Shown piece after piece: positions 1,678 to 14,739 of a DNA stretch of 64,000 bases. Position 1 is the stretch's first letter, and each line of letters opens with the position of its first letter. The notes beneath the pieces were generated by a model. It was not told the origin of the DNA. It saw nothing but the letters and a program-made list of their open reading frames with translations, and did no database searches. The translations under genes were made by a program, and so were the position numbers. The DNA is from Streptomyces caniferus (lineage in GTDB: Bacteria; Actinomycetota; Actinomycetes; Streptomycetales; Streptomycetaceae), in the NCBI RefSeq assembly GCF_009811555.1, contig NZ_BLIN01000003.1:1426001-1490000 (forward strand). The letters are read 5' to 3'.

Positions 1678-1782
1678 TAGGTGTGATCTTCGCGGGGCGT
1701 TCCCCGCGGCGACATGGACAACAATACCAAGGTTTCGGAGTGCCTTTCACCTGCATATCCGTCCGCCACATAACCTCGATTT

Positions 1783-3117
1783 ATGGGCAATGATGGACAT
1801 GTCGCGCATATCAGTGGTCCACGCAGGCCACGAGCGCTTTCGCCGCTGCGGGAGCATCTGCGGGACACCTTCTGGTTCGCCCCGACCGCGGGGCTGCTGT
1901 GTGCGGTGCTGCTGTGGTGGGCGGCGTCGGCCATCGACCTCAAGATCATCGCGTTGCTCCAGCAGGCGCATGCGTACGAGGCGGTGCGGGAACTGGTCTC
2001 GATCGCCGAGGACACCAAGACGATCGTGACGACGATCAGCTCGGCGATGATGACCTTCATCGGTGTGGTCTTCAGCATCTCGCTGGTCGCGGTGCAGATG
2101 GCGAGCGGTCAGCTCACCCCGCGGGTGGTGCGGATCTTCATCAGGAGCCGGATCAGCAAGATCACGCTCACGGTCTTCCTGGCGACCTTCCTCTTCTCAC
2201 TGCTGGTGCTCACCTCGTACGAGAGCGAGACCGACGTCCGGCAGGTCACGTCGGTGCCCGTCGTGCAGAGCGTGCTGACGATGGTGTTGGTGGGGCTCAG
2301 CCTGATCCTGTTCATCGCGTATGTGTCGGCGACCTTGCGGCTGATGCAGGTGGGGCCGGTGGTCGACCGGATCACCCGGGAGGCGCTGCGGATGCTGGCG
2401 CGGCAGGGCACGGGAGGGGAAGGCGGGGAGGACGGGGCACGTCTCGCGCCGGAGACGGGGCGGATCGCGCACGAGGGGCGGGCCGGGGCCGTCCTGGACG
2501 TGCATGTGGCGCGGCTGGTGCGGGTGGCGCGGCGGCAGGGGGTCGTCCTGCGGCTGATCCCGCGGATCGGGGACTTCGTGATGCCGGGGACGCCGGTGCT
2601 GGCGGTGCACGGCGGAGCGCCGCCGCCGCGGCGGGCGCTGCGGTACACGGTGTCGGTCGGGGTGGAGCGCACCTTCCACCAGGATCTCGGGCTCGGGCTG
2701 CGGCAGCTGTCGGACATCGCGTTGCGGGCGCTGTCGCCTGCGGTGAACGATCCGACCACGGCCGTGCAGTGCCTGGACCGGATCGTGCAGATCCTGGCGG
2801 TGGTGGTGCGGCGACCGCTCGGAGCGGTCCACCACCGGGATCGCCGGGGTGCGGTGCGGCTGGTGCAGAACGTTCCCGGCTGGACGGATCTGGTGGACCT
2901 CGGGCTGACCGAGGTCCGGGGGGCCGCGGTGCACAGTCCGCAGGTGACCCGGCGGATCCTGGCCGGGATCGATGATCTGCTGCTGCTCGCGCCGCCGGAC
3001 CGGCGGGAACCGCTGCTGCGGCACCGCACGCTCCTGTTGCAGTCGGTGGAGCGTGCGGTGCCGGCCGCCGCGGACCGGCGGTTCGCCTCGTCGCCCGACC
3101 GGCAGGGGATCGGCTAG
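1783..3117 (+). CDS. DUF2254 membrane protein
   Basis: 444 residues. The N-terminal third carries four likely membrane helices (about residues 28-48, 80-105, 125-150 and 165-190) with the family signature SSAMMTFIGVVFSISLVAVQMASGQLTPR. A soluble C-terminal domain follows, including LSPAVNDPTTAVQCLDR, also typical of DUF2254. The function of the family is unknown. The ATG at 1783 is the first in frame; a Shine-Dalgarno site is not obvious. The gene stands alone, with a tRNA upstream and a convergent aldehyde dehydrogenase downstream. Confidence 0.88.
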   Translation: MGNDGHVAHISGPRRPRALSPLREHLRDTFWFAPTAGLLCAVLLWWAASAIDLKIIALLQQAHAYEAVRELVSIAEDTKTIVTTISSAMMTFIGVVFSISLVAVQMASGQLTPRVVRIFIRSRISKITLTVFLATFLFSLLVLTSYESETDVRQVTSVPVVQSVLTMVLVGLSLILFIAYVSATLRLMQVGPVVDRITREALRMLARQGTGGEGGEDGARLAPETGRIAHEGRAGAVLDVHVARLVRVARRQGVVLRLIPRIGDFVMPGTPVLAVHGGAPPPRRALRYTVSVGVERTFHQDLGLGLRQLSDIALRALSPAVNDPTTAVQCLDRIVQILAVVVRRPLGAVHHRDRRGAVRLVQNVPGWTDLVDLGLTEVRGAAVHSPQVTRRILAGIDDLLLLAPPDRREPLLRHRTLLLQSVERAVPAAADRRFASSPDRQGIG

Positions 3118-3157
3118 GGCGGGTCCGCAAAGGTCCCGCCGTCCGCCCGGAGGGCGG
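3118..3157. terminator. Pair of GC hairpins between convergent genes
   Basis: GGCGGG (3118-3123) pairs with CCCGCC (3135-3140), and a second compact stem CCGCCC-gga-GGGCGG follows at 3143-3157. They sit right after the DUF2254 stop and before the stop of the convergent aldehyde dehydrogenase, so they may end transcription from both sides. Confidence 0.6.
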
Positions 3158-3170
3158 GCCTGCCGTACGG

Positions 3171-4766
3171 CTACGGCATCAGGTGGTAGTCGGGGAAGTT
3201 GCCCGGCAGACGTTCGGACTCCGGGCCCTCGGTCACCGCGCGGACCAGGAGCTCACCGCCGACGAACGCGCCGCTCCAGGAGTTGCCGAAGCCGCCGAAG
3301 AGCTCATCGCGGTCGCCGCGGGACCGGGGCTTGCCGTGGCCGACCTTGAAGGCGCGGATCTGCGGGGCGAGACGGTCGAAGGTGTCCTTGTCGTCGCAGG
3401 ACAGGCTGGCGACCAGGGCACCGTTGCTGGCATTCATGGCGGCGAGGAGCTCGGCCTCGGTGTCGACGAGGACGAGGGTGTCGACGGGGCCGAAGGGCTC
3501 GGCGTGGTGGAGCGGGGAAGAGGAGGGCGGGGCCAGAAGGGTGGTGGGCGGGAAGTAGGCGGAGGTGTCCTGGGAGGGCAGGAAGTGGCCGTCGGCGAGG
3601 CTGCCGCGGTGCAGGGGAACGGCGCCCCGGGAGATCGCCTCGGTGGTGAGGTCGGCGAGTTCCTTGGCCTTGGCTGCGTTGATCAGCGGGCCGAAGTCGA
3701 GTTCGGGGAGCGGGTCGGCGGGGTCGGCGACGGCCAGCGGGTGGCCGAACCGGACGCTGCGTACGGCCGGGAGGTACGCGGCGAGGAAGTCGGCGAAGGC
3801 CTCGCGCTGGACGACGAAGCGGGGGTAGGCGGTGCAGCGCTGCTTGGCGTAGTCGAAGGTCTTGCGCACCAGGGGTGTCAGCGACGGCCAGTCGGTGTAG
3901 TTCCAGATGCCCCAGGTGTTGAGGCCCTCCTGTTCGAGGATGTGGCGTTTGCCGAGGTCGGCGACGGCGGTGGCGACGCGGGCACCGGTGTCGCGGCCGC
4001 CGACGAAGGAGACACAGCCGATTTCCGGCGAGCGGACGAGGGAGGGTGAGAGTTCCTTGCCGCTCCCGCTGACGAGGGTGGCCGGGACCCCCTCACGGGC
4101 GGCCAGCGCGCAGGCGAGCGTGAGACAGACCAGACCGCCGTCGGTGGGGGTCTTGGCGATCACCGCGTTGCCGGCCAGTGCCTGGACGAGCATCGCGTGG
4201 ATCAGCACCGACATCGGGTAGTTCCAGCTGGCGATGTTGCTGACCGGGCCGGGCAGCGGGGTGCGGTCGGCGATCATCCGGTCGATCTCGGAGACGTACC
4301 AGCGGACGCCGTCGATGGCCCGGTCGACGTCGGCCTGTGCCAGCTTCCAGGGTTTGCCGATCTCCCAGACGAGCAGCAGCGCGAGCAGTTCGCGGTGTTC
4401 GGTCAGCGCGTCGAGGGCGGCGGAGATCCGGGCCTTGCGTTCGGTCAACGGGACGTGGCGCCAGGCCCGGTGCTGGTCGAGGGAGGCCCGTACGGCGTGC
4501 AGTGCGGCGTCCGCGTCGAGCCGGGGCGGGCCGGCGACGGGGGTGCCGTCGACGGGGCTGGTGGCGGGCAGCGGGTCGCCGTCCGGGTGCCAGGCGGCGG
4601 CCCAGAGGTTGAGCGCCTGGTCGTCGCGGAAGGCTTCGGGGGCCGCGGCCAGGCTGCGCTGCCAGGCGTCCTGCCAGGACGTTCCGGGCTTGAGGCGAAG
4701 CGTCGGGGCGGGCGTGGGGTGCGCGTTCCGCTGCGAGTTCGAGGGGGATTCTGCGGTGGGGGCCAT
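3171..4766 (-). CDS. NAD(P)-dependent aldehyde dehydrogenase family protein
   Basis: 531 residues from the ATG at 4766, chosen because GGAG lies 7 bases upstream; a GTG four codons earlier overlaps that site. ALDH landmarks are present: WNYP in the cofactor domain, a glutamate in LEQEGLNTWG (equivalent of the usual ELGGKN) and the nucleophile cysteine in QRCTAYPRFVV. The family oxidises aldehydes to acids. The altered EQEGLN loop and long N-terminus place it in a divergent branch; I cannot name the substrate. It is monocistronic and convergent with the DUF2254 gene. Confidence 0.85.
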   Translation of the reverse strand: MAPTAESPSNSQRNAHPTPAPTLRLKPGTSWQDAWQRSLAAAPEAFRDDQALNLWAAAWHPDGDPLPATSPVDGTPVAGPPRLDADAALHAVRASLDQHRAWRHVPLTERKARISAALDALTEHRELLALLLVWEIGKPWKLAQADVDRAIDGVRWYVSEIDRMIADRTPLPGPVSNIASWNYPMSVLIHAMLVQALAGNAVIAKTPTDGGLVCLTLACALAAREGVPATLVSGSGKELSPSLVRSPEIGCVSFVGGRDTGARVATAVADLGKRHILEQEGLNTWGIWNYTDWPSLTPLVRKTFDYAKQRCTAYPRFVVQREAFADFLAAYLPAVRSVRFGHPLAVADPADPLPELDFGPLINAAKAKELADLTTEAISRGAVPLHRGSLADGHFLPSQDTSAYFPPTTLLAPPSSSPLHHAEPFGPVDTLVLVDTEAELLAAMNASNGALVASLSCDDKDTFDRLAPQIRAFKVGHGKPRSRGDRDELFGGFGNSWSGAFVGGELLVRAVTEGPESERLPGNFPDYHLMP

Positions 4767-5034
4767 CGTTTTCTCCACTCTCGGTGCACGGCCGGAGGGG
4801 CAGGGTGGTGGCGCTCGGCGGCTCCCGGGGGAACCGTGTTACTGGACGGTAGTGGGCATGGGGGCACCGCGGGACGGTCCGGCGTCAGGTATGGCGAGTG
4901 TCACTCGGCGCGGGCGACGGGGCCACCCGGGTGAGGCGACCGCGTGGCCCGGGGGGGCGGCGCGGATCGCCGGCCTCCTCGGCGTCCGGCATCAACACGC
5001 CGTGGCGGGCGCGCAGTTCCCGGGTGCCGGTGCG
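4767..5034. other. Intergenic region upstream of the aldehyde dehydrogenase
   Basis: No convincing gene. The minus strand between about 5032 and 4890 has high GC at third positions in one frame (reading RTGTRELRARHGVLMPD) but no start codon before the strong hairpin at 5035-5079, so it may be a decayed coding remnant. CTACCGTCCAGTAAC, on the minus strand near 4838-4852, could belong to the promoter of the aldehyde dehydrogenase. Confidence 0.4.
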
Positions 5035-5079
5035 CGACGAGGGTGGGCGGCGCCGCGACGGCACCGCCCACCCTCGTCG
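5035..5079 (-). terminator. Strong terminator of the original chorismate mutase gene
   Basis: A perfect 16-bp stem: CGACGAGGGTGGGCGG (5035-5050) against CCGCCCACCCTCGTCG (5064-5079), loop 13. It begins 15 bases after the stop codon of the displaced chorismate mutase 3' end, which supports that remnant being the original gene terminus. Confidence 0.8.
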
Positions 5080-5093
5080 GTCGTGGGTACGGC

Positions 5094-5201
5094 TCAGCCG
5101 GCCGCGGGTCCGGCCGGCTGCCCCGTCCCCTCCTGCGTCCGGTCGGCGATCGCCCGGTGGTGGCGGACGACCTCCCCGATGATGAAGTTGAGGAACTTCT
5201 C
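5094..5201 (-). pseudogene. Displaced original 3' end of the chorismate mutase gene
   Basis: The minus strand reads EKFLNFIIGEVVRHH and then RAIADRTQEGTGQPAGPAAG before a stop at 5094-5096. The first 15 residues are identical to the C-terminal region of the chorismate mutase at 12029-12415; the tail differs. There is no upstream part of the gene here. The simplest reading is that a 6.9 kb insertion separated this end from the rest of the gene and supplied a substitute tail. Function as a protein: none. Confidence 0.85.
5157..5201. repeat. Attachment-site repeat, left copy (attL-like)
   Basis: A 45-bp sequence running from GTGGTGGCGGACGACC to GAGGAACTTCTC, identical to 12101-12145. Identity stops abruptly after 5201, while on the other side weaker similarity (GCGATnGC) extends about 11 bases further into the substitute coding tail. 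This is the pattern expected when a tyrosine integrase crosses over inside the 3' end of a protein gene and the element carries a coding replacement. Confidence 0.85.
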
Positions 5202-5307
5202 TGGGCAGGATGCCCGGCGCCCGGACCAGCCACTGGAATCAATGGACGCCAGGTCAGGGAGGCCTTAGTGACGCCCCCTGCCGCCGTAGCCCCGTTCCAC
5301 TCACGGT

Positions 5308-5364
5308 CTCCCACGTTCTGCTCACGGCCTGAGCTCGGAAGCCCGTCTCCCAAATACCTCCCAC
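5308..5364. repeat. Three CTCCCA repeats near the left attachment site
   Basis: CTCCCAC (5308-5314), CTCCCAA (5347-5353) and CTCCCAC (5358-5364) lie about 110-160 bases inside the left repeat. Short directly repeated motifs beside a crossover site are typical of integrase arm-type or excisionase sites. This is inference from position only. Confidence 0.35.
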
Positions 5365-5404
5365 GGGCGCCCGCATAACTGCATGTCAGACCCCCAACGA
5401 AAGC

Positions 5405-5433
5405 GAGCCCCCTCCCGGAAGGGGAGGGGGCTC
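5405..5433. terminator. Intrinsic terminator-like hairpin
   Basis: A perfect 12-bp stem GAGCCCCCTCCC (5405-5416) pairs with GGGAGGGGGCTC (5422-5433) around a 5-base loop. It separates the attachment region from the XRE gene and may also catch leftward transcripts from the element. Confidence 0.7.
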
Positions 5434-5435
5434 AA

Positions 5436-5483
5436 GGCGCCGGGCAGTAACAAAGGTGCCACCTTCGGCTACCGCCCGGCGCC
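5436..5483. repeat. Inverted repeat GGCGCCGGGC / GCCCGGCGCC
   Basis: Perfect 10-bp arms at 5436-5445 and 5474-5483 enclose 28 bases that contain a smaller hairpin (AGGTGCCACCT). It follows directly on the preceding terminator hairpin. Possible protein-binding or structural site of the element; role unknown. Confidence 0.5.
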
Positions 5484-5514
5484 CACCCGTGGGGCGCAGC
5501 TGATCGGCGCCGGG

Positions 5515-5579
5515 GATCATGGGAACACGCATTCGATTCACCACGCAATCACCCAGAGGGTGACCCGCGTCCCATGATC
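5515..5579. repeat. Inverted repeat GATCATGGGA / TCCCATGATC before the XRE gene
   Basis: Perfect 10-bp arms at 5515-5524 and 5570-5579 flank 45 bases directly upstream of the XRE start at 5585. A further TGATCA occurs at 5609-5614. This could be a looping operator for the regulator next door. Confidence 0.5.
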
Positions 5580-5584
5580 AAAAA

Positions 5585-5878
5585 ATGTACCCTCCGTGGT
5601 ACAGACATTTGATCAAGGTCGGCAGAGCGTTGACAGGTCCGTCCGATCCGCTGCCCGACTGGGTACCCACCCGCCGCCGGGCGATCGGCGCGTCCATCAG
5701 AACTGCACGACTCCGCCGCAACCTCACCCAAGAAGCGCTGGCCGAGCGCGCAGGCGGGTTAAATCGGAAAACGATCTCGCGCATCGAGAACGGCATGATG
5801 AGCCTCATCCTCGATCACCTCCTGCACATCGCCGACGCGCTCGGCGTTCCGCTCTCGGTCCTCGTACGGGATCCGTAG
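5585..5878 (+). CDS. XRE-family helix-turn-helix regulator
   Basis: 97 residues. A Cro/C1-type HTH spans about residues 38-95: RTARLRRNLTQEALAERAG, then a recognition helix NRKTISRIENG and the tail LDHLLHIADALGVPLSVLVRDP. It would bind DNA as a dimer. No Shine-Dalgarno site precedes the ATG at 5585, so translation may be leaderless or start further in. Codon 59 is TTA (5760-5762), rare in Streptomyces and dependent on the bldA tRNA, so expression may be developmentally limited. It is the only rightward gene at this end of the element and is convergent with the methyltransferase gene. Likely a repressor of element functions. Confidence 0.82.
   Translation: MYPPWYRHLIKVGRALTGPSDPLPDWVPTRRRAIGASIRTARLRRNLTQEALAERAGGLNRKTISRIENGMMSLILDHLLHIADALGVPLSVLVRDP
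5586..5603. promoter_or_regulatory. Palindromic operator overlapping the XRE start codon
   Basis: TGTACC-CTCCGT-GGTACA has perfect 6-bp arms and lies over codons 1-7 of the XRE gene. A dimeric helix-turn-helix repressor bound here would block its own expression. The GTACC/GGTAC half-site also occurs upstream of the small-gene operon at 8625-8655. Confidence 0.5.
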
Positions 5879-5914
5879 CCGCGGGCCCAGCGGATTGGTG
5901 CGCGCCGAGCCCGC

Positions 5915-7090
5915 TCAAACGGCCCACGAATGGGCGATGTCGTCCAGCCACGCGCGCTCGCCCTCGGGCGTCACGGTCAGACCGAACCGTGATTGGTCCG
6001 GTCGGCCATGGCCGACCCACCACTGGAACGCTGCCTGCGCTTCGTCCCACATCTGGCGGGGACCGGACTGCCAGACCCTCGCTGTGTCCCCGTCGCGGAA
6101 CAGCACGCACGCCCAGGACCGGTCACTCAGACTGTAGAACCAGACCGGTCGCGCACCATCGTGCTTGTCCGCCACGACGTAGGAACACTGGGGGACGCGG
6201 AGGCCCATAGCGAACCGCTCCGGGCCGAATTGCTCCCCGACGAACTCCGCTTCGGTGATGGTCGTGGAGGACTCGACGCCATCCGCCACGCTCCCAGTGA
6301 CGTACTCGGAGTGGGGCCGGGGCGCGAACCGCTGCGCCCGGAGCTTCATGAACTCCACAGGGCCTGTAAACCTGCCGGACGCACTCGCGCCGTCTGGCGC
6401 TACCACCAGGCGGGCCACCGCGTCGGCGTGGCTGTAATCCGTCCCCCAAGGGGCGACGATGACACCCCCCGGCCGGCATTGCTCCACCCACGCGAACGGG
6501 ACGGCCCGGAGTCCGCACGTAGCGATGACCCGGTCATACGGCGCCCCGTCCTGGTAGCCCTGGAACCCATCACCGTGGACGACCTGGACAGCGGCGCGCA
6601 GCCGCTCCACCGTAGCCATGGCGGCGGTAGCAAGGGACCGGTCCACTTCGACCGTGGTCACGCACCCCGGCCCCGCACGGTGGGCCATGAGCAGCGCATT
6701 CCAGGCCGTGGCGGTGCCGATTTCCAGGGCCCGCTGCCCCGGCTGCAGGTCCAGGTCTTGGAGCATGCGGAAGACCACACTCGGCATGGACGCGGAGCTG
6801 GTCGGGACATGGCCCGGCTCGGTCCCGTTGTGCTGCCCATCGTCCCACTGGGTGACGATGGGCACGTCGGAGTCGGCGAACTCCTGCCACCTCTCCGGCT
6901 CCTCCGCCCTGGACACCGGCACACTTCGGCCAGCCGCCAGGTCGAACGGCCAGATCAGATCCGGCAGGACGATGGCTCGGGGTACGGCAGCGTAGGCAGG
7001 TGCCCAGTCGGAGGAGAGGGCACCCGCGGACATGAGGGCGCGCCCCAGCCCGTCGAGGCTGGGGCGCTCCTCGCGTGCGTTGGTGGTCAC
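5915..7090 (-). CDS. PIMT-like protein-L-isoaspartate O-methyltransferase homologue
   Basis: 391 residues. The first 210 follow the PIMT plan: RALMSAGALSSDWAPAYAAVPR at the N-terminus, a substrate loop with PTSSASMPSVVFRML, the SAM-binding LEIGTATAWNALLMAH (canonical LEIGTGSGY), VEVDRSLATAA, and YDRVIATCGLRAVPFAWVEQCRPGGVIVAPW. A C-terminal domain of about 150 residues, not found in housekeeping PIMT (about 220 residues), resembles the extension of PIMT homologues in peptide natural-product clusters. The GTG start is 4 bases after the stop of the 40-residue peptide gene and has no ribosome site of its own, so the two are probably translationally coupled. Expected chemistry: methylation of aspartate carboxyls, possibly leading to aspartimide. 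Confidence 0.85.
   Translation of the reverse strand: MTTNAREERPSLDGLGRALMSAGALSSDWAPAYAAVPRAIVLPDLIWPFDLAAGRSVPVSRAEEPERWQEFADSDVPIVTQWDDGQHNGTEPGHVPTSSASMPSVVFRMLQDLDLQPGQRALEIGTATAWNALLMAHRAGPGCVTTVEVDRSLATAAMATVERLRAAVQVVHGDGFQGYQDGAPYDRVIATCGLRAVPFAWVEQCRPGGVIVAPWGTDYSHADAVARLVVAPDGASASGRFTGPVEFMKLRAQRFAPRPHSEYVTGSVADGVESSTTITEAEFVGEQFGPERFAMGLRVPQCSYVVADKHDGARPVWFYSLSDRSWACVLFRDGDTARVWQSGPRQMWDEAQAAFQWWVGHGRPDQSRFGLTVTPEGERAWLDDIAHSWAV
7040..7067. repeat. Perfect hairpin inside the 5' end of the methyltransferase gene
   Basis: GCGCCCCAGCC (7040-7050) and GGCTGGGGCGC (7057-7067) form a perfect 11-bp stem with a 6-base loop, within codons 8-17 of the methyltransferase. It has terminator or attenuator strength and could make the upstream peptide far more abundant than the enzyme. 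It may also be a coincidence of GC-rich coding. Confidence 0.55.
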
Positions 7091-7094
7091 TGGG

Positions 7095-7217
7095 TCAGAC
7101 AGCCTTGGGCGGGTTGGGGACGCCGGGGCCGCCGTCGGGGCTCGGCGCCGGGTGCGGGCCGGGGTACGGCTCGCCGGGAAGCTTGTCGCCGCCGTCGTTC
7201 TGAAGAGTCGCGATCAC
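7095..7217 (-). CDS. 40-residue Gly/Pro/Asp-rich peptide, candidate RiPP precursor
   Basis: GTG start at 7217 preceded by a perfect AGGAGG 5 bases away, the best ribosome site in the element. The peptide begins MIATLQNDGGDKLPGEPY, continues PGPHPAPSPDGGPG and ends VPNPPKAV. It has no signal peptide, membrane segment or cysteine. It carries two Asp-Gly-Gly motifs (NDGG and PDGG); Asp-Gly is the classic site of succinimide and isoaspartate formation, the substrate chemistry of PIMT enzymes. The stop is 4 bases before the start of the PIMT homologue. The two-gene arrangement resembles aspartimide-forming peptides such as imiditides. The precursor role is inference. Confidence 0.7.
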   Translation of the reverse strand: MIATLQNDGGDKLPGEPYPGPHPAPSPDGGPGVPNPPKAV

Positions 7218-7270
7218 GGGTTCCTCCTGGTATCTCGAAGATGTTGCCCTGGTGACTGCTCTTTACGGCT

Positions 7271-7327
7271 GGCCCGTATCGGGCCGGTGTGCCGGCCGCC
7301 GCCGCGGTGAGGTGTGCGGCGGCCGGC
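7271..7327 (-). terminator. Palindrome and strong terminator between the two element operons
   Basis: GCCGGCCGCCGC (7291-7302) pairs perfectly with GCGGCGGCCGGC (7316-7327), a 12-bp stem ending the small-gene operon. Next to it GGCCCG-tat-CGGGCC (7271-7285) is a 15-bp palindrome suited to a repressor. Any promoter of the peptide/methyltransferase operon must lie between here and 7236. Confidence 0.65.
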
Positions 7328-7373
7328 GGGCCCGCGGCGCTGACGACGGGGGGGCGCCTACGCCACGGGGGCT

Positions 7374-7583
7374 TCAGGGGCGGAGGCGTCTCGGCTCGCC
7401 GGGCAATCGGACACCTTCTCTGCGGGCGAGAATGCGGGCCACGCCCGGGGGTACGGGCGGCGTCGCTCCGCGAGCGCACGGGCCGCACACCGTCACGACG
7501 TGCGCCGGGCCCGTCGCCGAGTCGATCTCAACGTCCCGCAAGTTGAGGGTGCTGCCGCAGTCGCAGCGGGGAGATGCCGTCAC
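7374..7583 (-). CDS. Small zinc-ribbon-like protein
   Basis: 69 residues from a GTG at 7583 that overlaps the upstream stop by 4 bases (GTGA), with GAGGGG shortly before. It begins VTASPRCDCGSTLNLRDVEID and carries a second pair in VVTVCGPCARG, so CxC plus CxxC could bind one zinc. The tail is basic (VARILARREGVRLPGEPRRLRP). It is the last of five overlapping small genes. The family is not recognised; such small zinc proteins are frequent on Streptomyces mobile elements. Confidence 0.6.
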   Translation of the reverse strand: MTASPRCDCGSTLNLRDVEIDSATGPAHVVTVCGPCARGATPPVPPGVARILARREGVRLPGEPRRLRP

Positions 7584-7675
7584 CGCTGCCCCCTCGTCAT
7601 GCCGACTGCCAGCACGACGGCGAGAGCAGCCAGGCACACCAGATAGGTCACCATGCGGCGCTGATCACGCGTCAT
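7580..7675 (-). CDS. 31-residue single-span membrane peptide
   Basis: ATG at 7675 overlaps the stop of the gene before it (ATGA), and its own TGA overlaps the GTG of the next. It has a basic start (MTRDQRRM), one hydrophobic helix (VTYLVCLAALAVVLAVGM) and a basic end (TRGQR). Tight overlap on both sides argues it is translated. Role unknown; it could be a small membrane partner for one of its neighbours. Confidence 0.55.
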   Translation of the reverse strand: MTRDQRRMVTYLVCLAALAVVLAVGMTRGQR

Positions 7676-8073
7676 GCCTGCCTCACCGCCGTGATGGCAC
7701 GGGCGGCGTGCTCGTCGGACTCCCCGAACGTGGTGACCGTCCAGCCACCCGCCTCGATGATGCGTTGCTGGAGTTGAAGACGGTGGGTGTCGTCAGTCGC
7801 GAGGCGGCCCCAGGTGTGCACCAGGCACAGCACTGGCCGCCGGCCAGCCTCCGCACGCATCGCCTCCGTCAAGGCGGCCACCGCCGGGCGGTGCGTGCCG
7901 AGCGCATGCGCACCGAGGTCGAGCCACCGTCGGCCGGCGAGCACCCACCTCATCCGGTCCACGTATGCCTGGCAGGCCAGCAGGCGCATGTCCAGGTCTC
8001 GGCGTGTTCGGCTGCTGGCGCACCGGTCGTAGACGAAAGCGAGCGGGGCCTGTGCATACAGGGATGCGGTCAC
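7672..8073 (-). CDS. Stand-alone serine-recombinase catalytic-domain-like protein
   Basis: 133 residues from the GTG at 8073 (GTGA overlap with the gene before). The sequence follows a resolvase N-terminal domain: an early FVYDRCASS strand (compare YxRxSS of resolvases), LLACQAYVDRMRWVLAGRRWLD (compare LxACRxYAxRxGWEVVGxYxD), HRPAVAALTEAMRAEAG, then VLCLVHTWGRLATDDTHRL (compare VVWKLDRLGR) and IIEAGGWTVTT. It lacks the DNA-binding domain that active recombinases need. Serine and arginine residues sit near the expected positions but are not clearly canonical. Probably a co-opted or accessory fold rather than the element's integrase. Confidence 0.6.
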   Translation of the reverse strand: MTASLYAQAPLAFVYDRCASSRTRRDLDMRLLACQAYVDRMRWVLAGRRWLDLGAHALGTHRPAVAALTEAMRAEAGRRPVLCLVHTWGRLATDDTHRLQLQQRIIEAGGWTVTTFGESDEHAARAITAVRQA

Positions 8074-8387
8074 GACCGGGCCCCCTCGGCCTGCTGATCC
8101 AGCAGCCACAGGCAGTTCCGAGCCAGAGCCCGCACCTGTTGATGCGCGGACACCAGCCCGGAGCCCAGACCGACAGCGGTCTGGTAACGGATCGCCGTCA
8201 GGCTGGACTGCTCCCGCGGGTCGAGCTGCTGCTCGGCGACCTCGGAGTACAGGTCCGCAATGATGAGGAGCAGAGCCTGCTCCAGCGCCACCAGCTCGTC
8301 GTACTGCGGAGGCGGACCAGGGCGCAGCGCTCGGTCTACGGTCTCCTGGATCTCGTCACGGCTCGGCGCGCCAGCGGTCGCAGTCAT
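8070..8387 (-). CDS. Small helical hypothetical protein
   Basis: 105 residues from the ATG at 8387, chosen for GGAGG 5 bases upstream; it also overlaps the preceding stop (ATGA). Predicted mostly helical and soluble (ALEQALLLIIADLYSEVAEQQLDPREQSSLTAIRYQTAVGLGSGLVSAHQQVRAL is amphipathic). No signature known to me. Second gene of the overlapping chain. Confidence 0.6.
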   Translation of the reverse strand: MTATAGAPSRDEIQETVDRALRPGPPPQYDELVALEQALLLIIADLYSEVAEQQLDPREQSSLTAIRYQTAVGLGSGLVSAHQQVRALARNCLWLLDQQAEGARS

Positions 8388-8578
8388 TGCGGCCTCCGGC
8401 CCTTGTGCTGCGGGCAGGCCACGATGAACCACTCGCGCACGCCGCCCTCAACCGGAGTGGTGACCGACCCGGCAGGGGTGAGGGGGCTATGCGCGGTTCC
8501 GCACCAGTAACATGCCTCGGCGTGCAGCCGGACGATACTCACGTCCGGATCTGCAGGTGGAGCTGTCGTTGCGGTCAC
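8384..8578 (-). CDS. Small CxxC/CxxH zinc-finger-like protein
   Basis: 64 residues from the GTG at 8578, with GGGAG 6 bases upstream; an ATG at 8584 is the alternative but sits directly on that site. One CYWCGTAHSP motif and one VACPQHKGRRPQ tail could form a CxxC...CxxH zinc site. First of five overlapping small genes and thus the operon leader. It lies just downstream of the GTACCCC repeats at 8625-8655. Confidence 0.55.
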   Translation of the reverse strand: MTATTAPPADPDVSIVRLHAEACYWCGTAHSPLTPAGSVTTPVEGGVREWFIVACPQHKGRRPQ

Positions 8579-8624
8579 GCTCATCTCCCTGTGCCGGTGG
8601 GCTTAGGAAGATGGTCGACCGCCG

Positions 8625-8655
8625 AGTACCCCTCAAGTACCCCTGCGAGGGGTAC
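8625..8655. promoter_or_regulatory. GTACCCC direct and inverted repeats before the small-gene operon
   Basis: AGTACCCCT occurs twice in tandem at 8625-8633 and 8636-8644 (period 11, one helical turn), and the second copy forms a perfect palindrome with GGGGTAC: GTACCCC-TGCGA-GGGGTAC (8637-8655). It lies about 45-75 bases upstream of the first small gene and beside the 3' end of the XRE/TPR regulator gene. Likely operator of an element regulator. Confidence 0.55.
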
Positions 8656-8658
8656 CGT

Positions 8659-9849
8659 TCAGGCGCCCGCCCCTGCGTGGCACCACTCAGCAAAGTTCGA
8701 CAGCGACTCGGCATCCGCCCGCTTCAATCGGCGCAGCGTGGCCGCGTCCTCCCTCACCCACCGGTGCTCCCGCGCATGCTGCGGCGCGATCCTCCGTGCC
8801 ACCTTCAGCGACTCGAACGCTGCATCTGGGCGGCCGGACCAGAGCTGTGCCCTCCCCAGCTCGATGTAGAAGCCGGACCGCCGCTCGGCCGGCAGGTCCC
8901 GCGGCGGCGCCCACTCGCGTGCCAGTTTCAGCGCCCTGCCCAGGTGATCTTCCCCAAGGCTGACCGCTACAGACACCTCGTGGATGCGGACACTGTCCGG
9001 GCCGAACGCCGTGCCGCCGTATACGCCCTCCGGGACCTGGTCGCCGAGAACGCGGGCGGCATCGAGGTGAGTCACGGTCGCGTCACCATCGCCAGCCCTG
9101 CCAGCGATCACAGCAGCCCGCATGTGCAGGGCTCCGCGCGCGGCAACGGCCTCGGCCGCCGAGGACGTTGGTGCCTGGTCCACGGCGAATTCGAGAGCGC
9201 GTAACCCAGCAGCATGTGCCCTGGCGGCGAAGAACGTCTCCGTCCGGACGTACGCCGTCGTTGCGTCCGCCACCGGGTCGTCCGCCTGTCGCACAGCCCA
9301 CCGCATCAGGTCGATGAGACGGGCCGACAGGTCCCGGGCGCCGTACTTGTAGGCGACGGCGTCCGCGGCCCGGCAAGCGTCCACCAGCAATCGGGCGACG
9401 GCGGGCCGGTCTCCCGGCTCTGCCCCCTGCAGCGCGCGGCACAGCTCGGCCAGTAGGTCCGGCGCAGCACGAGCCACTCGCACGTACTGCGCGCCGAGCC
9501 GCCACGCGACGACGGACGCGACAGCCTCGGCGAGGGCCGGCAGTGAGCGGTACGGTGCGTCTTCAGGCACGTCGTAGGTCGCGAGTACGGAGGAGAGTCC
9601 CGGCATGGCCCGGTGCACGCGGTCGTCCGGGCGCTCCTTATCGGGCAGCAGCCGGGCCGGGTCGATGTCGAGAGCATCCGCGATGGCATCCAGGACAGCG
9701 TCCGACACGCCGCGCTCGCCGCGCTCGATCTTTCGGATGGTCCCGAGGCTGGTCCCGGCGGCGCGCGCCAGCTCAGCCTGTGTGAGGCTGGCGATGCGGC
9801 GCTCGTAGGCGATGCGGGGCCCTACCCCGCGATACACAATGCTGGGCAT
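8659..9849 (-). CDS. XRE-family regulator with TPR-like C-terminal domain
   Basis: 396 residues. The N-terminal HTH (about residues 10-70: RIASLTQAELARAAGTSLGTIRKIERGERGVSD) is followed by about 300 helical residues rich in Ala/Leu with TPR-like repeats (ALEFAVDQAPTSS, GALHMRAAVIAGRAGDGDATVTHLDAARVLGDQ, GRAQLWSGRPDAAFESLKVARRI). This layout is common in Streptomyces regulators that sense peptides or partner proteins. It lies immediately upstream of the small-gene chain and the peptide/PIMT pair on the same strand, and so is the likely pathway regulator. An inverted repeat at 9860-9881 suggests autoregulation. Confidence 0.85.
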   Translation of the reverse strand: MPSIVYRGVGPRIAYERRIASLTQAELARAAGTSLGTIRKIERGERGVSDAVLDAIADALDIDPARLLPDKERPDDRVHRAMPGLSSVLATYDVPEDAPYRSLPALAEAVASVVAWRLGAQYVRVARAAPDLLAELCRALQGAEPGDRPAVARLLVDACRAADAVAYKYGARDLSARLIDLMRWAVRQADDPVADATTAYVRTETFFAARAHAAGLRALEFAVDQAPTSSAAEAVAARGALHMRAAVIAGRAGDGDATVTHLDAARVLGDQVPEGVYGGTAFGPDSVRIHEVSVAVSLGEDHLGRALKLAREWAPPRDLPAERRSGFYIELGRAQLWSGRPDAAFESLKVARRIAPQHAREHRWVREDAATLRRLKRADAESLSNFAEWCHAGAGA

Positions 9850-9859
9850 ACTGGTCTCC

Positions 9860-9881
9860 GTTCGGTGCAGCCACTCCGAAC
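9860..9881. promoter_or_regulatory. Inverted repeat GTTCGG-N10-CCGAAC upstream of the XRE/TPR gene
   Basis: Perfect 6-bp arms at 9860-9865 and 9876-9881, 11 bases before the start codon on the minus strand. The position fits an autoregulatory operator. Confidence 0.5.
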
Positions 9882-9913
9882 CGTACCCGCGCCGTCACGG
9901 TCCGGGAACAGAA

Positions 9914-9946
9914 ACGGCCCCGCCCCCATCACGCGGGCGGGGCCGT
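9914..9946 (-). terminator. Terminator after the HAD hydrolase gene
   Basis: ACGGCCCCGCCC (9914-9925) pairs perfectly with GGGCGGGGCCGT (9935-9946) around 9 bases. It starts 10 bases past the HAD stop codon. Confidence 0.8.
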
Positions 9947-9955
9947 GCAGTTCGC

Positions 9956-10597
9956 TCACTCGGCCCGCACCACGTCGACCAGCTCGGCGAGACTCCCCAC
10001 CCTCCAGTCCGCGGCCCGCGCCTCCTCGCCGTCCGCCCACAGATGCCCCAGCGGCCCGCGACGCAGGTGCGCAGTCCGTAGGCCAGCCGACTGCGCCGGG
10101 CCGACGTCGTTCTGCGGATGGTCACCGACGTACAGCACCTCGTCCGCCGCGACGCCAGCCAGCTCAACGGTGCGCGCGAAGAACTCGGGCGCAGGCTTCG
10201 CCACGCCCCACTCGCCGGACGTGGCCAGCGCATCCACCGGCAGGTCGAGAGCGCGCAGCAACTCCGCGGCGCGGGCCGTCTGGTTGCCAGCCACCACCAC
10301 GCGGACACCGCTCGCCCGGAGCGCGGCGAGCGACGGCCGGACGTCTGGGTACAGATCGGACTCGTCCAGAGCCTCACCCCGACCGGCCCGCTCCATCGCA
10401 GCCCGTTCCGCCTCCACATCGATGTCCGGCCGGACAAGCCGCAGTGCATCCGCGTTATCCCGGCCCTGCGCAACCACCGCACCGACCAGAGCCGACAGCG
10501 TGTGCCGGCTGACGCCCAACCAGTCCGCCCATGCGCCCCACCCACGGTCATCACTGATGAGGGTTTCGCCGATATCGAATACCACTGCACGGATCAT
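9956..10597 (-). CDS. HAD-superfamily hydrolase
   Basis: 213 residues with the HAD motifs in order: motif I VVFDIGETL (DxGxT form instead of the common DxDxT), motif II VVVAGNQT, motif III lysine in GVAKPAPEFF and motif IV YVGDHPQNDVGPAQSAG. The helical cap sits between motifs I and II, as in haloacid dehalogenase-like phosphatases. With motif I reading DIGE, the second aspartate (the usual acid/base) is glycine, so activity may be reduced or different. The gene lies inside the element, divergent from a small protein gene, and has no clear Shine-Dalgarno site. Confidence 0.85.
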   Translation of the reverse strand: MIRAVVFDIGETLISDDRGWGAWADWLGVSRHTLSALVGAVVAQGRDNADALRLVRPDIDVEAERAAMERAGRGEALDESDLYPDVRPSLAALRASGVRVVVAGNQTARAAELLRALDLPVDALATSGEWGVAKPAPEFFARTVELAGVAADEVLYVGDHPQNDVGPAQSAGLRTAHLRRGPLGHLWADGEEARAADWRVGSLAELVDVVRAE

Positions 10598-10661
10598 GCG
10601 AGCAGCCTACGGTTCGGCAACCCGTGTGCGTATGCCAGTACCCAGCCGTACGATTTGCGGC

Positions 10662-10823
10662 ATGGCGACCACCTGCGTCACCGGCGCCGCGAGCGCGAAC
10701 GAGGCGATCCGCCAGTTCATGGCCGCGCGCACTGGCCGGCCGCTGTGGCAGGACGAAGCCGAGGAGTACGAGCGGCTGCTCGCCGCATGGGCCTCCGCCG
10801 CGCACGCGCCCAAGGCCACCTGA
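10662..10823 (+). CDS. 53-residue conserved small protein
   Basis: It starts MATTCVTGAASANEAIRQFM and continues AARTGRPLWQDEAEEYERLL before a short Ala-rich end. The frame has strong GC at third positions and stops just before a terminator. The pattern of a short helical protein with a WQDEAxEYxRLLxxW core seems familiar from Streptomyces genomes; function unknown. No Shine-Dalgarno site is visible, so it may be leaderless. Divergent from the HAD gene. Confidence 0.55.
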   Translation: MATTCVTGAASANEAIRQFMAARTGRPLWQDEAEEYERLLAAWASAAHAPKAT

Positions 10824-10831
10824 AACGAAAA

Positions 10832-10863
10832 GACGCCCCGCCACCCGAAGGCGATGGGGCGTC
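10832..10863. terminator. Bidirectional terminator
   Basis: GACGCCCC (10832-10839) pairs with GGGGCGTC (10856-10863) between the convergent small gene and the metalloprotease pseudogene; AAACGAAAA precedes it, giving a T run on the minus strand. Confidence 0.7.
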
Positions 10864-10874
10864 CTTCCATGCGG

Positions 10875-11430
10875 CTACTTGATGCCCTGCGCCTTGGCGT
10901 TGGCCAGCAGTGCCTTGAGCCCGTTGACGTCGTAGCCGGTCAGACGGCCAGCGTTCGACGTCTTGTAGCCGCCGTTCGGAGAGCACATGATCGGGGTGTT
11001 GCCGTACGAGGTGGCCACGCAGTCGTAGGCGATCTCCTTACCGGCCGCGTCGAGGCGGTTGGGATGGTCGAGGCCGAGGGCGTGCAGCGGCTCGTGGACG
11101 ATGATGTTGCGCAGCTTGTATGTGGCCGACGGGTCCGCACTTCGCAGGGTTCACTGCTTCGACGCCGCCGATCGCCAGTCTCACGCCGGCGGCCTTGGCC
11201 TGGGCGACTGCTGCTGTCAGGTAGGGCGTGTAACGGGTCTTCAGTGCGGCGGCAGCAAAGGTGATCGTGTACTGGCGTGAGGGGCTGATGCTGGTGACGC
11301 CGAGCTGGGTGGTGAGCTTCCACCCGGTGCCCTTGGTCGTGATCGTCGCAGCGTCGGCGGGGGCGGCGGTGAGCGCGCACGCCGCAAGGGCAGTGGCGGC
11401 GGCGACGGCGACGGCGAGGGGCTTGCGCAT
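10875..11430 (-). pseudogene. Frameshifted secreted metzincin-type metalloprotease
   Basis: ATG at 11430 with AAGGAG 4 bases upstream. A clear signal peptide (MRKPLAVAVAAATALAACAL then TAAPADA) is followed by a mature N-terminal part ending near AVNPAKC. The rest is in another frame: DPSATYKLRNIIVHEPLHALGLDH and on to ANAKAQGIK. HEPLHALGLDH is an exact HExxHxxGxxH zinc motif. The switch falls near 11136-11142, where one base too many or two too few break the frame; repaired, the protein would have about 185 residues. A sequencing error is possible. If real, the protease is dead. Confidence 0.75.
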
Positions 11431-11500
11431 GGCTCTCCTTATGTAGTTGTGGGGGGAGTGTGATGGCCTGTTCACCAAACAGACGCACGACCCATGCGGA

Positions 11501-11518
11501 TAGTTACACTGTCAACTA
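11501..11518. promoter_or_regulatory. Palindrome TAGTT-N8-AACTA upstream of the metalloprotease
   Basis: An 18-base operator-like palindrome, AT-rich against its surroundings, about 70 bases upstream of the pseudogene start. A second small one, CTGTT-CACCA-AACAG, lies at 11469-11483. TTGACA on the minus strand within the palindrome would suit a -35 element. Confidence 0.45.
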
Positions 11519-11554
11519 GATCGTCTTCGCGATGAGTTGAAGGCACCTGCAAAG

Positions 11555-11586
11555 CGCCCCGCCCCTGCCGAAGCAGAGGCGGGGCG
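11555..11586 (-). terminator. Terminator following the coiled-coil pseudogene
   Basis: CGCCCCGCC-C-CTGC and GCAG-A-GGCGGGGCG pair over 14 positions with one mismatch, loop CGAA, 20 bases after the pseudogene's stop codon. Confidence 0.7.
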
Positions 11587-11605
11587 ATGGCCAGCGCGCC
11601 AGTCC

Positions 11606-11944
11606 TCACACGTCGATGTGGTGGATGTACTGCCGCGCCCGCTCCGACATAGGCGCCGGCGCCGGAGGCTCAAGGCCGGATTGCCGGATATAGCCCACGA
11701 GGACCCTCACCCGGGACAGGAGCCAGAGCCCAGGGCCAGATCCTGATCCCCGATGCGCTCCCGCTGCCGGGCGCTCTCCGTCTCTTGCTAGCCGATGCGC
11801 TGCTGGAGGCGGGCGATCTCCTTATCGGGCCGGTCAGCGATCGTGGCGAAATCGTCGCGGCGTACGGCGGGCGGAGCGAGCCGCCCACACACCGCCCCCC
11901 GTGACCGCCGACACCGCGATCGATGCCCATGTCTCAGGACTCAC
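11606..11944 (-). pseudogene. Decayed small membrane/coiled-coil protein gene
   Basis: From a GTG at 11944 the minus strand reads VSPETWASIAVSAVTGGGVWAARSARR, then leaves frame near 11863. The next frame reads DDFATIADRPDKEIARLQQRIG, meets a TAG (11788-11790), continues QETESARQRERIGDQDLALG, and after another shift near 11725 ends VLVGYIRQSGLEPPAPAP to HHIDV. Together this would be a 113-residue protein with an N-terminal helix, a coiled coil and a short tail, of a type seen next to phage or conjugative-element genes. Three lesions make it non-functional. Confidence 0.65.
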
Positions 11945-12028
11945 GGCGCCCCACCCTCTTGGGTCTCGGGTGCTCACGCCACCCGGCGAGGTGCCCCGGC
12001 GTACCGTCGAACACGTAACTATCCGAGA

Positions 12029-12415
12029 TCACTCAGTGGGATCTGGAGTGTCTTCACTCCGCTCATCGTTGCTGGTAGAAGCCTGATGAGCGATGGCTTT
12101 GTGGTGGCGGACGACCTCCCCGATGATGAAGTTGAGGAACTTCTCGGCGAACGCCGGGTCCAGCTTGGCGTCCTCGGCCAGCCGGCGCAGCCGCTCGATC
12201 TGCGCGGCCTCGCGGGCCGGGTCGGCGGGCGGCAGGCTGTGCCGGGCCTTGAGCTCGCCGACCTGCTGGGTGCACTTGAAGCGCTCGGCGAGCAGGTGCA
12301 CGAGGGCGGCGTCGAGGTTGTCGATGCTGCCGCGCAGATAGCCCAGCCGTTCACGGGCCGCCTCGTCGGCGACGGCGGCCGCTTCGCCGGCCGCCGGTGC
12401 TGTCCCCTCGCTCAT
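12029..12415 (-). CDS. Chorismate mutase, AroQ type, with element-supplied C-terminus
   Basis: 128 residues. The all-helical AroQ fold is evident: RGSIDNLDAALVHLLAERFKCTQQVGELKARHSLPPADPAREAAQIERLRRLAEDAKL, with the arginine and lysine positions expected to bind chorismate. It converts chorismate to prephenate for Phe/Tyr synthesis. After VVRHH the tail (KAIAHQASTSNDERSEDTPDPTE) is encoded by the integrated element; the ancestral tail lies at 5094-5201. Because the core ends before the junction, the enzyme should still work. ATG at 12415 with a weak GGCGAG upstream. Confidence 0.9.
   Translation of the reverse strand: MSEGTAPAAGEAAAVADEAARERLGYLRGSIDNLDAALVHLLAERFKCTQQVGELKARHSLPPADPAREAAQIERLRRLAEDAKLDPAFAEKFLNFIIGEVVRHHKAIAHQASTSNDERSEDTPDPTE
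12101..12145. repeat. Attachment-site repeat, right copy (attR-like)
   Basis: Identical over 45 bases to 5157-5201. It encodes FLNFIIGEVVRHH of the chorismate mutase on the minus strand. To its right lies the native gene body and to its left the element-encoded tail. Confidence 0.85.
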
Positions 12416-12780
12416 GTGCGTCTCGCCATTCGTGGTTCGGTTGCCTGGTGCGATGTCGTGCTGATGGTGCTTCCTCGATGATCGGATGCACATTACCCGG
12501 ACGGTGACCGGCGGCCGGGCCGGTCTCGCGGATCGGACCGGAGGCGATCCGTTCCGGCCACGGAGGAAGAGCCGCCTGCCGGAACCGGGGAGCCGTCCCG
12601 GGGTTGGCGGCCGGGGCGACGGTGTCATCGTGCTCGACGATCCACGACGGGGCCGGCCCGTGTGGCCGCGGTGGCGGTGGCCCGGGCACCCCCCGTCGGA
12701 CGACGCCCGGTGGCAGGTTCCCCCACAGAACCCGCCACCGGGCCGCTCTTCATGGGGCGCGGCGCTCGGCCCTCCCCGGC
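12416..12780. other. Non-coding region upstream of chorismate mutase
   Basis: No gene can be supported. Open frames here on the minus strand read as proline/arginine-rich noise in continuation of the chorismate mutase frame. The region must contain the promoter of that gene; no consensus stands out. Confidence 0.4.
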
Positions 12781-13155
12781 TCAGGCACATACCCAGGCCG
12801 CCGCCCCCTCACCCCTCCTTTTCGTTTTGGTGATCTGTCCGGCACGCTCGCCGGGCTCATGACCGCGCCCCGGTCCGCGGCGGTCGGCGTACTCGGCGTA
12901 CTCCAGGAGGACGCCGCCGGTAGTGCGGGTGAACAACCGCCCGGCACCGGAGAGTTCGAGCGTCGCCGCGGGCGCGGTGTGGCACAGGACGAGGCACCTG
13001 CCGGCGCTGCCGGTGCGGTCGGCCGGGTCCTCGCACCTCCCGAGCCCGTCCGCCTGCCGCCGGAACACACCGGGGAATCCGTCGCACGGACCGGGGCCGC
13101 GGGAGGGTGCCCCTGGGAGGATGTGCCCGTTCGCACCAGGCAGCCGACCGACCAT
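12781..13155 (-). CDS. Hypothetical protein (uncertain)
   Basis: Up to 124 residues in a frame where nearly all third positions are G or C over about 75 codons, e.g. the stretches CDGFPGVFRRQADGLGRCEDP and ELSGAGRLFTRTTGGVLLEY. That bias favours real coding. The N-terminal 20 codons look less convincing, so translation may start inside (GTG of VFRR). No family recognised. It is divergent from the FAD monooxygenase and would overlap nothing if the inner start is used. Confidence 0.35.
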   Translation of the reverse strand: MVGRLPGANGHILPGAPSRGPGPCDGFPGVFRRQADGLGRCEDPADRTGSAGRCLVLCHTAPAATLELSGAGRLFTRTTGGVLLEYAEYADRRGPGRGHEPGERAGQITKTKRRGEGAAAWVCA

Positions 13156-13187
13156 CGGCGCCGGACAACGCAGGGGGTTTCCGCCGT

Positions 13188-14510
13188 ATGAGCAGGGATC
13201 GCATCCGTATCGCAGGGGCCGATGTCGCCGTCGTGGGCGGCAGTATCGCGGGGTGCGCCACGGCGCTGGCCGCGCACCGGGGCGGCGCGGGCCGGGTCAC
13301 CGTCTTCGAACGCACCACCGGGCACCTCGCGGACCGCGGGGTCGGCCTCGTCGTGCACGACGCCCGGTACGCCGAGCTCACGTCCGCCGGGTACATGGAC
13401 ACCGGCATGCCGTGGGTGCAGCTGACCACCGGCCGCTGGTACGTACGCGACGGCGCCGCTCCGCTCGGCCGCCAGATCGGTGCGCGGCCCTTCCCGTTCC
13501 GCTCGTACTGCTGGGGGCCGCTCTGGCAGGAGTTACGGCGGCGGCTGCCCCGGGACACCGTCTTCCGGCCGGGGGTCCGGGTGGCCGCGGTCGGCGAGGC
13601 GGCGGACGGCGTCACGCTCCGCCTCGACGGCGCCGACGGGGACGAGGCCTCCGCGGGCAACGGCGAGCGGCACCGCACCGACACCGCCGCCGGCACCTCC
13701 GCCGGCCGTCATACGGAGCGCTTCGACCTGGTCATCGGCGCGGACGGCTATCGCTCGGTGGTCCGCGACACCGCGTTTCCCGGTGTGCGGCCCGACTACG
13801 CCGGCTATCTCGCCTGGCGCGGCGCGGTCCCGGCCGACCGGCTGACGGCGCTGCGCTTCCCCGGCCTGCCCGCCGACCCCTGGGCGGAGGAGGACTGCAT
13901 CTACGGCGTCTTCCCCGGCGGCCACGTCATCATCTACCGCATCCCGGACGGCCAGGGCGGCCACCGCGCGAACTGGGTCCTGTACACCGCCCCGCCCGCC
14001 GGCCTCGACCTGGGCCTCGACACCCCCACCAGCCTGCCGCCCGGCACCCTCACCGACGCCCTGCACGCCCACTTCACCTACGTCACGGACGAGTTGCTGC
14101 CACCCTACTGGGGCGGGCTGATGCGCCTGACACCACGTCACGAGCTGTTCATCCAGCCGATGTACGACTTCACCGCGGCGCGCTACACGGCGGGCCGGCT
14201 GGTGCTCGCGGGCGATGCCGCCACCGTGGCCCGCCCGCACACCGGCGCCGGCGCGGTCAAGGCGCTGCAGGACGCCGCCGCCCTGGAAGCCGCGTTGCGC
14301 GCCGTACCCGAGCGGCCCGACGCGCTGACGGCGTACGGCACCGGGCGCGGCGCGACCGGCCGGACGATGGTCGAGCTGGGACGCCGGCTGGGCCGGGCCC
14401 TGGTCCAGGACACCCCGGACTGGCGGACGCTGGACCAGGCCGGACTGGAGGCCGCCTGGGCCGCGGCCGACGGCTCGGGCACGTTCGGCGGCCGTGAGCT
14501 GAAGAACTGA
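13188..14510 (+). CDS. FAD-dependent monooxygenase (aromatic hydroxylase family)
   Basis: 440 residues. The N-terminal FAD-binding motif reads VAVVGGSIAGCATALA, followed by a DG motif region (DLVIGADGYRSVVRD) and the C-terminal LVLAGDAATVARPHTGAGAVKALQDAAAL that contacts the flavin. This is the PHBH/UbiH fold; the details recall 2,6-dihydroxypyridine 3-hydroxylase types. It would hydroxylate an aromatic or heteroaromatic substrate using NAD(P)H and O2; the substrate is unknown. ATG at 13188 fits the family start; a GGGGG lies about 11 bases upstream. Apparently monocistronic, ending at a strong terminator. Confidence 0.88.
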   Translation: MSRDRIRIAGADVAVVGGSIAGCATALAAHRGGAGRVTVFERTTGHLADRGVGLVVHDARYAELTSAGYMDTGMPWVQLTTGRWYVRDGAAPLGRQIGARPFPFRSYCWGPLWQELRRRLPRDTVFRPGVRVAAVGEAADGVTLRLDGADGDEASAGNGERHRTDTAAGTSAGRHTERFDLVIGADGYRSVVRDTAFPGVRPDYAGYLAWRGAVPADRLTALRFPGLPADPWAEEDCIYGVFPGGHVIIYRIPDGQGGHRANWVLYTAPPAGLDLGLDTPTSLPPGTLTDALHAHFTYVTDELLPPYWGGLMRLTPRHELFIQPMYDFTAARYTAGRLVLAGDAATVARPHTGAGAVKALQDAAALEAALRAVPERPDALTAYGTGRGATGRTMVELGRRLGRALVQDTPDWRTLDQAGLEAAWAAADGSGTFGGRELKN

Positions 14511-14519
14511 TGCCCCGGG

Positions 14520-14572
14520 GCACCCCGCACCGCCGGCCCGGCCGGGCCGATGGGGCATACGGTGCGGGGTGC
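14520..14572 (+). terminator. Terminator after the FAD monooxygenase
   Basis: Perfect 13-bp arms GCACCCCGCACCG (14520-14532) and CGGTGCGGGGTGC (14560-14572), starting 10 bases past the stop codon. Confidence 0.75.
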
Positions 14573-14739
14573 GACGCCGGCTGCCCGACCGCACCGCCGT
14601 GCAGGAGAATGGGAACGCCGAGGTCACCTCGCCGTACGCCCCGGTGACCACGGCGGCAACCTCCGCACCAAGGGCTTCGGCTCTCCGCACAGACAGCGCC
14701 GGGACCGAGCCGGCCCGGTGAGAACGGGACTGATCAGAC

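Follow-up and report, generated by a model that had tools for sequence, protein, structure and literature searches.

The accessible part of a survey of Streptomyces integrative elements counts 36 tRNA, 14 protein-coding and 1 intergenic attachment sites, so that the remark in an earlier note on the DNA described here, that protein-coding targets are less usual, is only partly right; decayed elements in protein-coding sites are known for integrative conjugative elements (AICEs) in the same source (PMC9513070). In Escherichia coli, Rac and DLP12 are cryptic ("grounded") prophages, according to PMC6379469. Here we analyzed a 64,000-nucleotide stretch of Streptomyces caniferus DNA (the window), in which an element bounded by two copies of a 45-bp repeat occupies the 3' end of a chorismate mutase (CM) gene. 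Comparison with other genomes of the genus, above all with a complete prophage in genome G437 (contig C3), indicates that the element is very probably the remnant of a CM-site Streptomyces prophage, shrunk by one or more internal deletions. Its kind, the cryptic prophage, is a known class in which such decay is ordinary.

The two repeat copies, 5157-5201 and 12101-12145, are identical over all 45 bp, for which approximately 4e-17 pairs would be expected by chance (9 kb, window composition), and they fall in the CM codons for EKFLNFIIGEVVRHH. The features at the edges of the element are:

12032..12415, minus strand: live CM gene, aroQ type (PF01817, E 9.8e-24; TIGR01795 and PRK09239 above cut-off)
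12101..12145, no strand: attR copy of the 45-bp repeat; the portion that is exactly repeated in G437 too is CCGATGATGAAGTTGAGGAACTTCTC
12032..12100, minus strand: final 23 CM codons, phage-supplied, KAIAHQASTSNDERSEDTPDPTE; the G437 counterpart, KAIAHQASTSNDERSGETSAPIE, is nearly the same
5157..5201, no strand: attL copy of the 45-bp repeat
5094..5201, minus strand: displaced original CM 3' end with its own stop codon kept, resembling the tails of relatives
5035..5079, no strand: strong hairpin downstream of the original CM end; a similar hairpin sequence lies beside the S. lydicus CM gene

The exact repeat and a new 23-residue tail contributed by the element had both been proposed in the earlier note, and both hold, as CM codons 12032-12100 lie inside the element. 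The displaced 3' fragment had been described as keeping a stop and a terminator; the stop is present, while the hairpin at 5035-5079, which has no obvious T run, is plausible but not proven as the terminator. The core of all CM sites compared contains ATGATGAAGTTsAGsA..TTCTC, and in both window copies of the attachment (att) core GAAGTT and AACTTC form an inverted repeat, which is a predicted integrase binding site.

When the flanks of the window were joined in silico, an unbroken CM gene ending in RAIADRTQEGTGQPAGPAAG (the RAIADRTQEG tail) resulted. Element-free sites reading through into a tail of this type, which the earlier note had anticipated, were found in two relatives. In G064, the counterpart of window 1-4949 (89%) directly abuts that of 12101-17000, with the CM tail RAIADRTHEEATAEAAGQAGPAAG. 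S. lydicus (L052) is arranged likewise, with synteny on both sides and the CM tail RAIADRTQEEAGEQPAGTAGPAAG. The presence of the gene end in two copies could also be read as an old duplication of the CM 3' end without any insertion, but these empty sites refute that reading, to which we give next to no credence. Moreover, apart from chance matches of 14 to 18 bases, no second CM-end copy was found at any of 83 scanned CM loci, of which 62 include 7.5 kb or more of downstream sequence; the window, scanned as a control, gave both copies. A joined-site search covering 120 relatives, of which 109 matched, revealed displaced second CM-end copies in G042 and G016.

Integrases of one subfamily (E 1e-30 or better) were found in 22 of 392 genomes of the genus, and in three of these 22, G016, G042, and G437, the integrase adjoins the CM gene. 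In G042, the CM-end copies lie 59,678 bases apart and share a 30-bp exact repeat, giving a prophage of 59.7 kb. In G016, a 64,004-base contig starts and ends with the 30-bp core, and two other contigs end in the CM gene and in the old tail; we infer the order of this prophage across the contig breaks. The integrases of both lie on the CM side and are 72% identical to each other, and each prophage has PHROG matches to the large and small terminase, major head protein, and tape measure. In G437, the CM site is occupied by a prophage of approximately 54 kb, whose exact 26-bp repeats lie at a distance of 54,236 bases from each other and whose tyrosine integrase is next to the CM gene. In a PHROG scan of 10 chosen open reading frames (ORFs) of this prophage, matches were obtained for the integrase, both terminase subunits, major head protein, tape measure, endolysin, DNA methyltransferase, and exonuclease; of the other scanned ORFs, one had no match beyond a family of unknown function, and for the other such a family was the best match, with regulators next. 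Together with the empty sites, these complete prophages bear out the proposal of a site-specific insertion in the CM 3' end with a replacement tail, and they supply the tyrosine integrases next to CM 3' ends that the earlier note had suggested looking for.

The window is collinear with the G437 prophage over 2940-5568, 7286-7393, 7549-10800, 11552-11989, and 12027-12559, at 80 to 90% identity. Between the counterparts of window positions 11989 and 12027, G437 has 49,348 extra bases, the single gap of that kind, and the missing segment spans the integrase and all of the genes for virion, lysis, and recombination functions that were recognized in G437. Because the window is otherwise collinear with this prophage, we consider the element to be a prophage reduced by internal deletion. 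The parts that frame the loss are:

5202..5568, no strand: left prophage arm (attP side), 83% identical to G437:C3:1277726-1278089
11552..11989, no strand: right end of the surviving attL-side cargo, 80% identical to G437:C3:1282053-1282492
11990..12026, no strand: deletion junction, where 49,348 G437 prophage bases are absent
12027..12100, no strand: right prophage arm, within the 12027-12559 match (90%) to G437:C3:1331841-1332395

Homology to G437 stops on the left at CACCCGGCGA and begins again on the right at GATCACTCA. Several observations fit less well with this explanation. Seventeen bases of the junction match the interior of the G437 prophage in reverse (E 7e-4), and the deletion was therefore perhaps more than one simple event. 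Window stretches 5569-7285 (an XRE-type regulator and a pamtide-like gene pair) and 10801-11551 (a protease-like gene), as well as the junction of approximately 37 bases, have no counterpart in G437; because the two longer stretches are absent there, G437 is a relative rather than the parent. Only a weak match to the G437 region was obtained with the protein of the attL-proximal XRE gene. Finally, the deleted state could not be dated, the species of the window being represented by one strain. Comparison demonstrates the insertion, its site, its phage origin, and the missing segment.

In the order of events that we infer, the attP of a temperate, siphophage-like Streptomyces virus would have recombined with the EKFLNFII codons near the CM 3' end through the phage's own tyrosine integrase, a mechanism argued from comparison and from knowledge of tyrosine integrases. 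The int-side phage arm would have given the replacement tail and stop, leaving the CM gene intact and its enzyme presumably still working, and the old 3' end would have moved to the far end. One or more later internal deletions would then have taken approximately 49 kb, from the end of the cargo to just past the integrase stop, and with it excision and lysis. Left behind would be attL, the attL-side cargo genes, and attR, in a remnant no longer able to move unaided.

No integrase was found between the repeats: when 4801-12900 was searched by tblastn for two CM-site integrases, all matches were at E 0.4 or worse. The earlier suggestion of a relic without an integrase is thus upheld and can be specified as an internal deletion of approximately 49 kb from a prophage. 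A tblastn search of the 83 CM loci with one CM-site integrase as the query (E 1e-4), which covers this subfamily only, likewise gave no CM-type integrase. An integrase motif scan of 80 CM loci had no match and was not relied on, since the revised motif found only 2 of 7 control loci in the own genome. In the subfamily search of the 392 genomes, the own genome had no integrase of the CM-site subfamily, and its 12 PF00589 matches, 6 of them over the cut-off, were all other integrases. PF00589 did not report either of the two CM-site integrases scanned, so it is by the subfamily search only that a helper is judged absent from the own genome. With the PF00589 model blind to these two, Pfam-based prophage scans may miss CM-site integrases.

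With its att sites kept and its recombinase absent, the element is also structurally compatible with a cis-mobilisable element, and it could be an integrase-less passenger (such an element or a satellite) that is mobile in trans via the integrases of CM-site phages. Both 45-bp att copies and both arms survive, CM-site phages are present in the genus, and the large regulator of the element is under purifying selection relative to G437 (dN/dS ~0.08). Phage cargo would, however, be expected to be under such selection anyway; in addition, the same deleted unit occurs in no other of the 392 genomes, the own genome lacks an integrase of the subfamily, and one gene inside the element is broken. PHROG matches of seven element ORFs included no satellite-type family, and a satellite of the PICI (phage-inducible chromosomal island) kind, with phage-hijacking but no virion genes, would have an integrase of its own, of which there is none between the repeats. 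We regard the passenger explanation as very unlikely. What stands of the earlier note's cis-mobilisable element is the persistence of both att sites and arms; against it are the missing subfamily integrase and the lack of a second copy among the 392 genomes. Excision in trans by a related integrase of an infecting phage would be possible in principle, as both att sites and most of the arm DNA persist.

A decayed AICE was considered as well, as Streptomyces AICEs use gene ends and undergo decay where they are inserted, a glycosyltransferase gene being the site of one such case in PMC9513070, and as the regulator and HAD hydrolase gene pair of the element occurs on plasmids too. However, eight scanned element ORFs contain no TraB/FtsK or replication domain (Pfam), and the intact, collinear relative in G437 carries phage virion genes, which already largely refutes the AICE explanation; we consider its probability negligible. 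A cryptic prophage, on the other hand, accounts for the att flanks with an empty attB in relatives, for the descent from a complete prophage with virion genes (collinear in G437), and for the loss of excision and lytic functions (the 49,348-base gap including the integrase, and the negative tblastn result).

To place the CM-site integrases, relatives were collected from viral records and a tree was built. An IMG/VR search gave 11 integrase loci, of which 6 have the CM end at the att site and 5 stop before it; five of the six sites are attP-like, with CM similarity ending soon past the core and unrelated DNA following. A second viral scan, with the G437 integrase as the query, gave four loci, none with CM: two break off short of the att site, and the other two lie next to tRNA-like ends. 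Phage records yielded 230 matches to the CM-site integrase, all below 60% identity, the best by coverage being phage RP3 (46%). In the tree of 31 integrases (without L159, L160, L163, and L237-L240), the nine whose site was read as CM all group within a single 14-member clade, with support of 90/95, which is below the level starred by the tree tool. The G437 integrase is the first branch of this clade, the users of tRNA-Val and tRNA-Arg lie outside it, and the sister integrases are located at tRNA genes. For L149-L154 and L156-L158, the tRNA site was read by eye from the 3' flank, the L154 fragment differing from the others; complete tRNA genes were called by ARAGORN only for L155, for L159-L164, and for the overlaps L168, L171, and L172. 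A single switch of target from tRNA to CM would be the simplest reading, though not a forced one. By the label count of the tree tool, the CM label needs six changes, since the clade includes five integrases whose site was not read; one of these five (L147, G421:C3:416899-418185) does not adjoin CM. G421 also has a 71% match to the left arm of the window elsewhere, at C5:298989.

Within the element, two genes next to each other resemble a described natural product system:

5915..7090, minus strand: PIMT-like methyltransferase (PAMT; PF01135; TIGR04188 below cut-off; phrog_13505, E 8.9e-112)
7095..7217, minus strand: 40-aa Gly/Pro/Asp-rich putative precursor peptide, core GGDKLPGEPYPGPHPAPSPDGGPGVPNPPK, with a GTG start and a ribosome-binding-site-like AGGAGG

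Type I pamtides (SpaA/SpaM) consist, in the accessible part of PMC10787088, of a Gly/Pro/Asp-rich peptide of approximately 45 aa and a PIMT-like enzyme, with no other modifying enzyme. The window pair (5915-7217, minus strand) shares this two-gene layout and fits a type I pamtide cluster by its sequence: a short Gly/Pro/Asp-rich peptide lies next to PAMT, with no LanB or lasso enzyme and, within the element, no ATP-grasp enzyme. It differs in sitting inside a prophage remnant and in being known here from its genes. The methyltransferase is preceded by a peptide of this pattern at 13 of the 14 loci viewed; the own-genome paralogue, L002, differs. The phage isolate Ididsumtinwong has a related enzyme (44%) preceded by a 47-aa Gly/Ser/Asp-rich ORF, and one IMG/VR contig has the enzyme at 79%; given these, phages may carry pamtide-like clusters. 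No paper joining "pamtide" with "phage" was found in the literature searched. At the position of the pair, G437 has a 62-aa ORF (G437:C3:1278194-1278382, minus strand), one end of which is rich in Asp, Gly, and Pro; no match to the methyltransferase was found there, and the ORF may represent another type of small peptide cargo. A wider scenario, in which an RP3-related integrase lineage moved from tRNA genes to CM codons and founded a CM-site phage group whose remnants are excisable in trans, so that infection could spread pamtide-like cargo, seems to us improbable.

The remaining cargo genes are:

5585..5878, plus strand: XRE-type regulator just inside attL (PF01381), 38% (G042) and 43% (G016) to regulators in the same place; G437 region 37%, E 1.6e-4
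7672..8109, minus strand: 145-aa ORF with a weak resolvase-like Pfam match below cut-off; G437 protein 70% identical
8070..8432, minus strand: DUF6415 ORF (PF19979); G437 protein 84% identical
8659..9849, minus strand: 396-aa XRE regulator of phage family phrog_5823, 93% identical in G437
9956..10597, minus strand: HAD-family hydrolase (PF00702), 85% identical in G437
10870..11430, minus strand: broken secreted-protease-like gene with an internal deletion and a frame shift; no Pfam family for the window ORF

By its dN of 0.039 and dS of 0.487, the 396-aa regulator is under purifying selection relative to G437, and the two smaller ORFs have dN/dS ratios near 0.3. The regulator and HAD pair is found on plasmids as well, with matches to some portion of the element in 38 records. 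In a viral contig whose integrase uses a tRNA site (L239), the 7700-8614 segment (76%) lies beyond the att site, as these genes would if they were phage backbone. The protease-like gene, a putative snapalysin, has unbroken relatives in the G016 prophage, where only sub-threshold Pfam matches to metallopeptidases were obtained, and on contig C5 of the own genome (L016). The latter paralogue (G000:C5:1472835-1475993) adjoins a short integrase remnant (132-aa frame), and the region is perhaps another decayed prophage. Elsewhere in the own genome, one 179-aa integrase-like frame recurs close to three contig termini (L019, L020, and L021), namely the end of G000:C3 and each end of contig C10 (24 kb). 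The final 2,712 bases of C3 and C10 are identical, which may reflect terminal repeats or an assembly split.

No description of the CM 3' end as an attachment site was found in the literature searched, a coverage that mostly leaves out subscription papers and is not proof of absence; the accessible parts of PMC11857848, PMC3483164, and PMC10465536 do not describe one. The genome table of PMC3483164 gives a Phaeobacter "chorismate mutase family protein" as the best match of the Burkholderia phage AH2 integrase gp37, which may come from a mistake in naming or may point to an independent CM site in a different phylum. The present analysis identifies the CM 3' end as an attachment site for Streptomyces phages, together with its integrases. 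These integrases could serve as tools, and they offer a compact case of how a lineage exchanges tRNA targets for protein-coding ones. For lists of viral metabolic genes, it is relevant that a CM gene next to viral DNA can belong to the host, at the border of a prophage, rather than being cargo of the virus.

Among known systems, the G437 prophage shares with the window the CM site, the arms, a near-identical replacement tail, and collinear attL-side genes; it differs in keeping the integrase and virion genes and in lacking the pamtide-like pair and the protease stretch. Actinophage RP3 (X80661) has the nearest named integrase by coverage, its 46% extending over the whole query, but its annotated attP core is the tRNA-Arg(CCT) site sequence of L155 and not CM, and its integrase belongs to another tree clade. 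Streptomyces phage VWB has the regulator and HAD hydrolase gene pair in common with the window (68.8% DNA identity in aligned pieces), but it is a complete phage and the likeness is limited to that pair. As in E. coli prophages of the Rac and DLP12 type, as far as the accessible part of PMC6379469 describes them, the means of excision and large parts have been lost while accessory genes were kept; unlike in those, both att sites of the window are apparently intact, and its grounding lies in the loss of the integrase.

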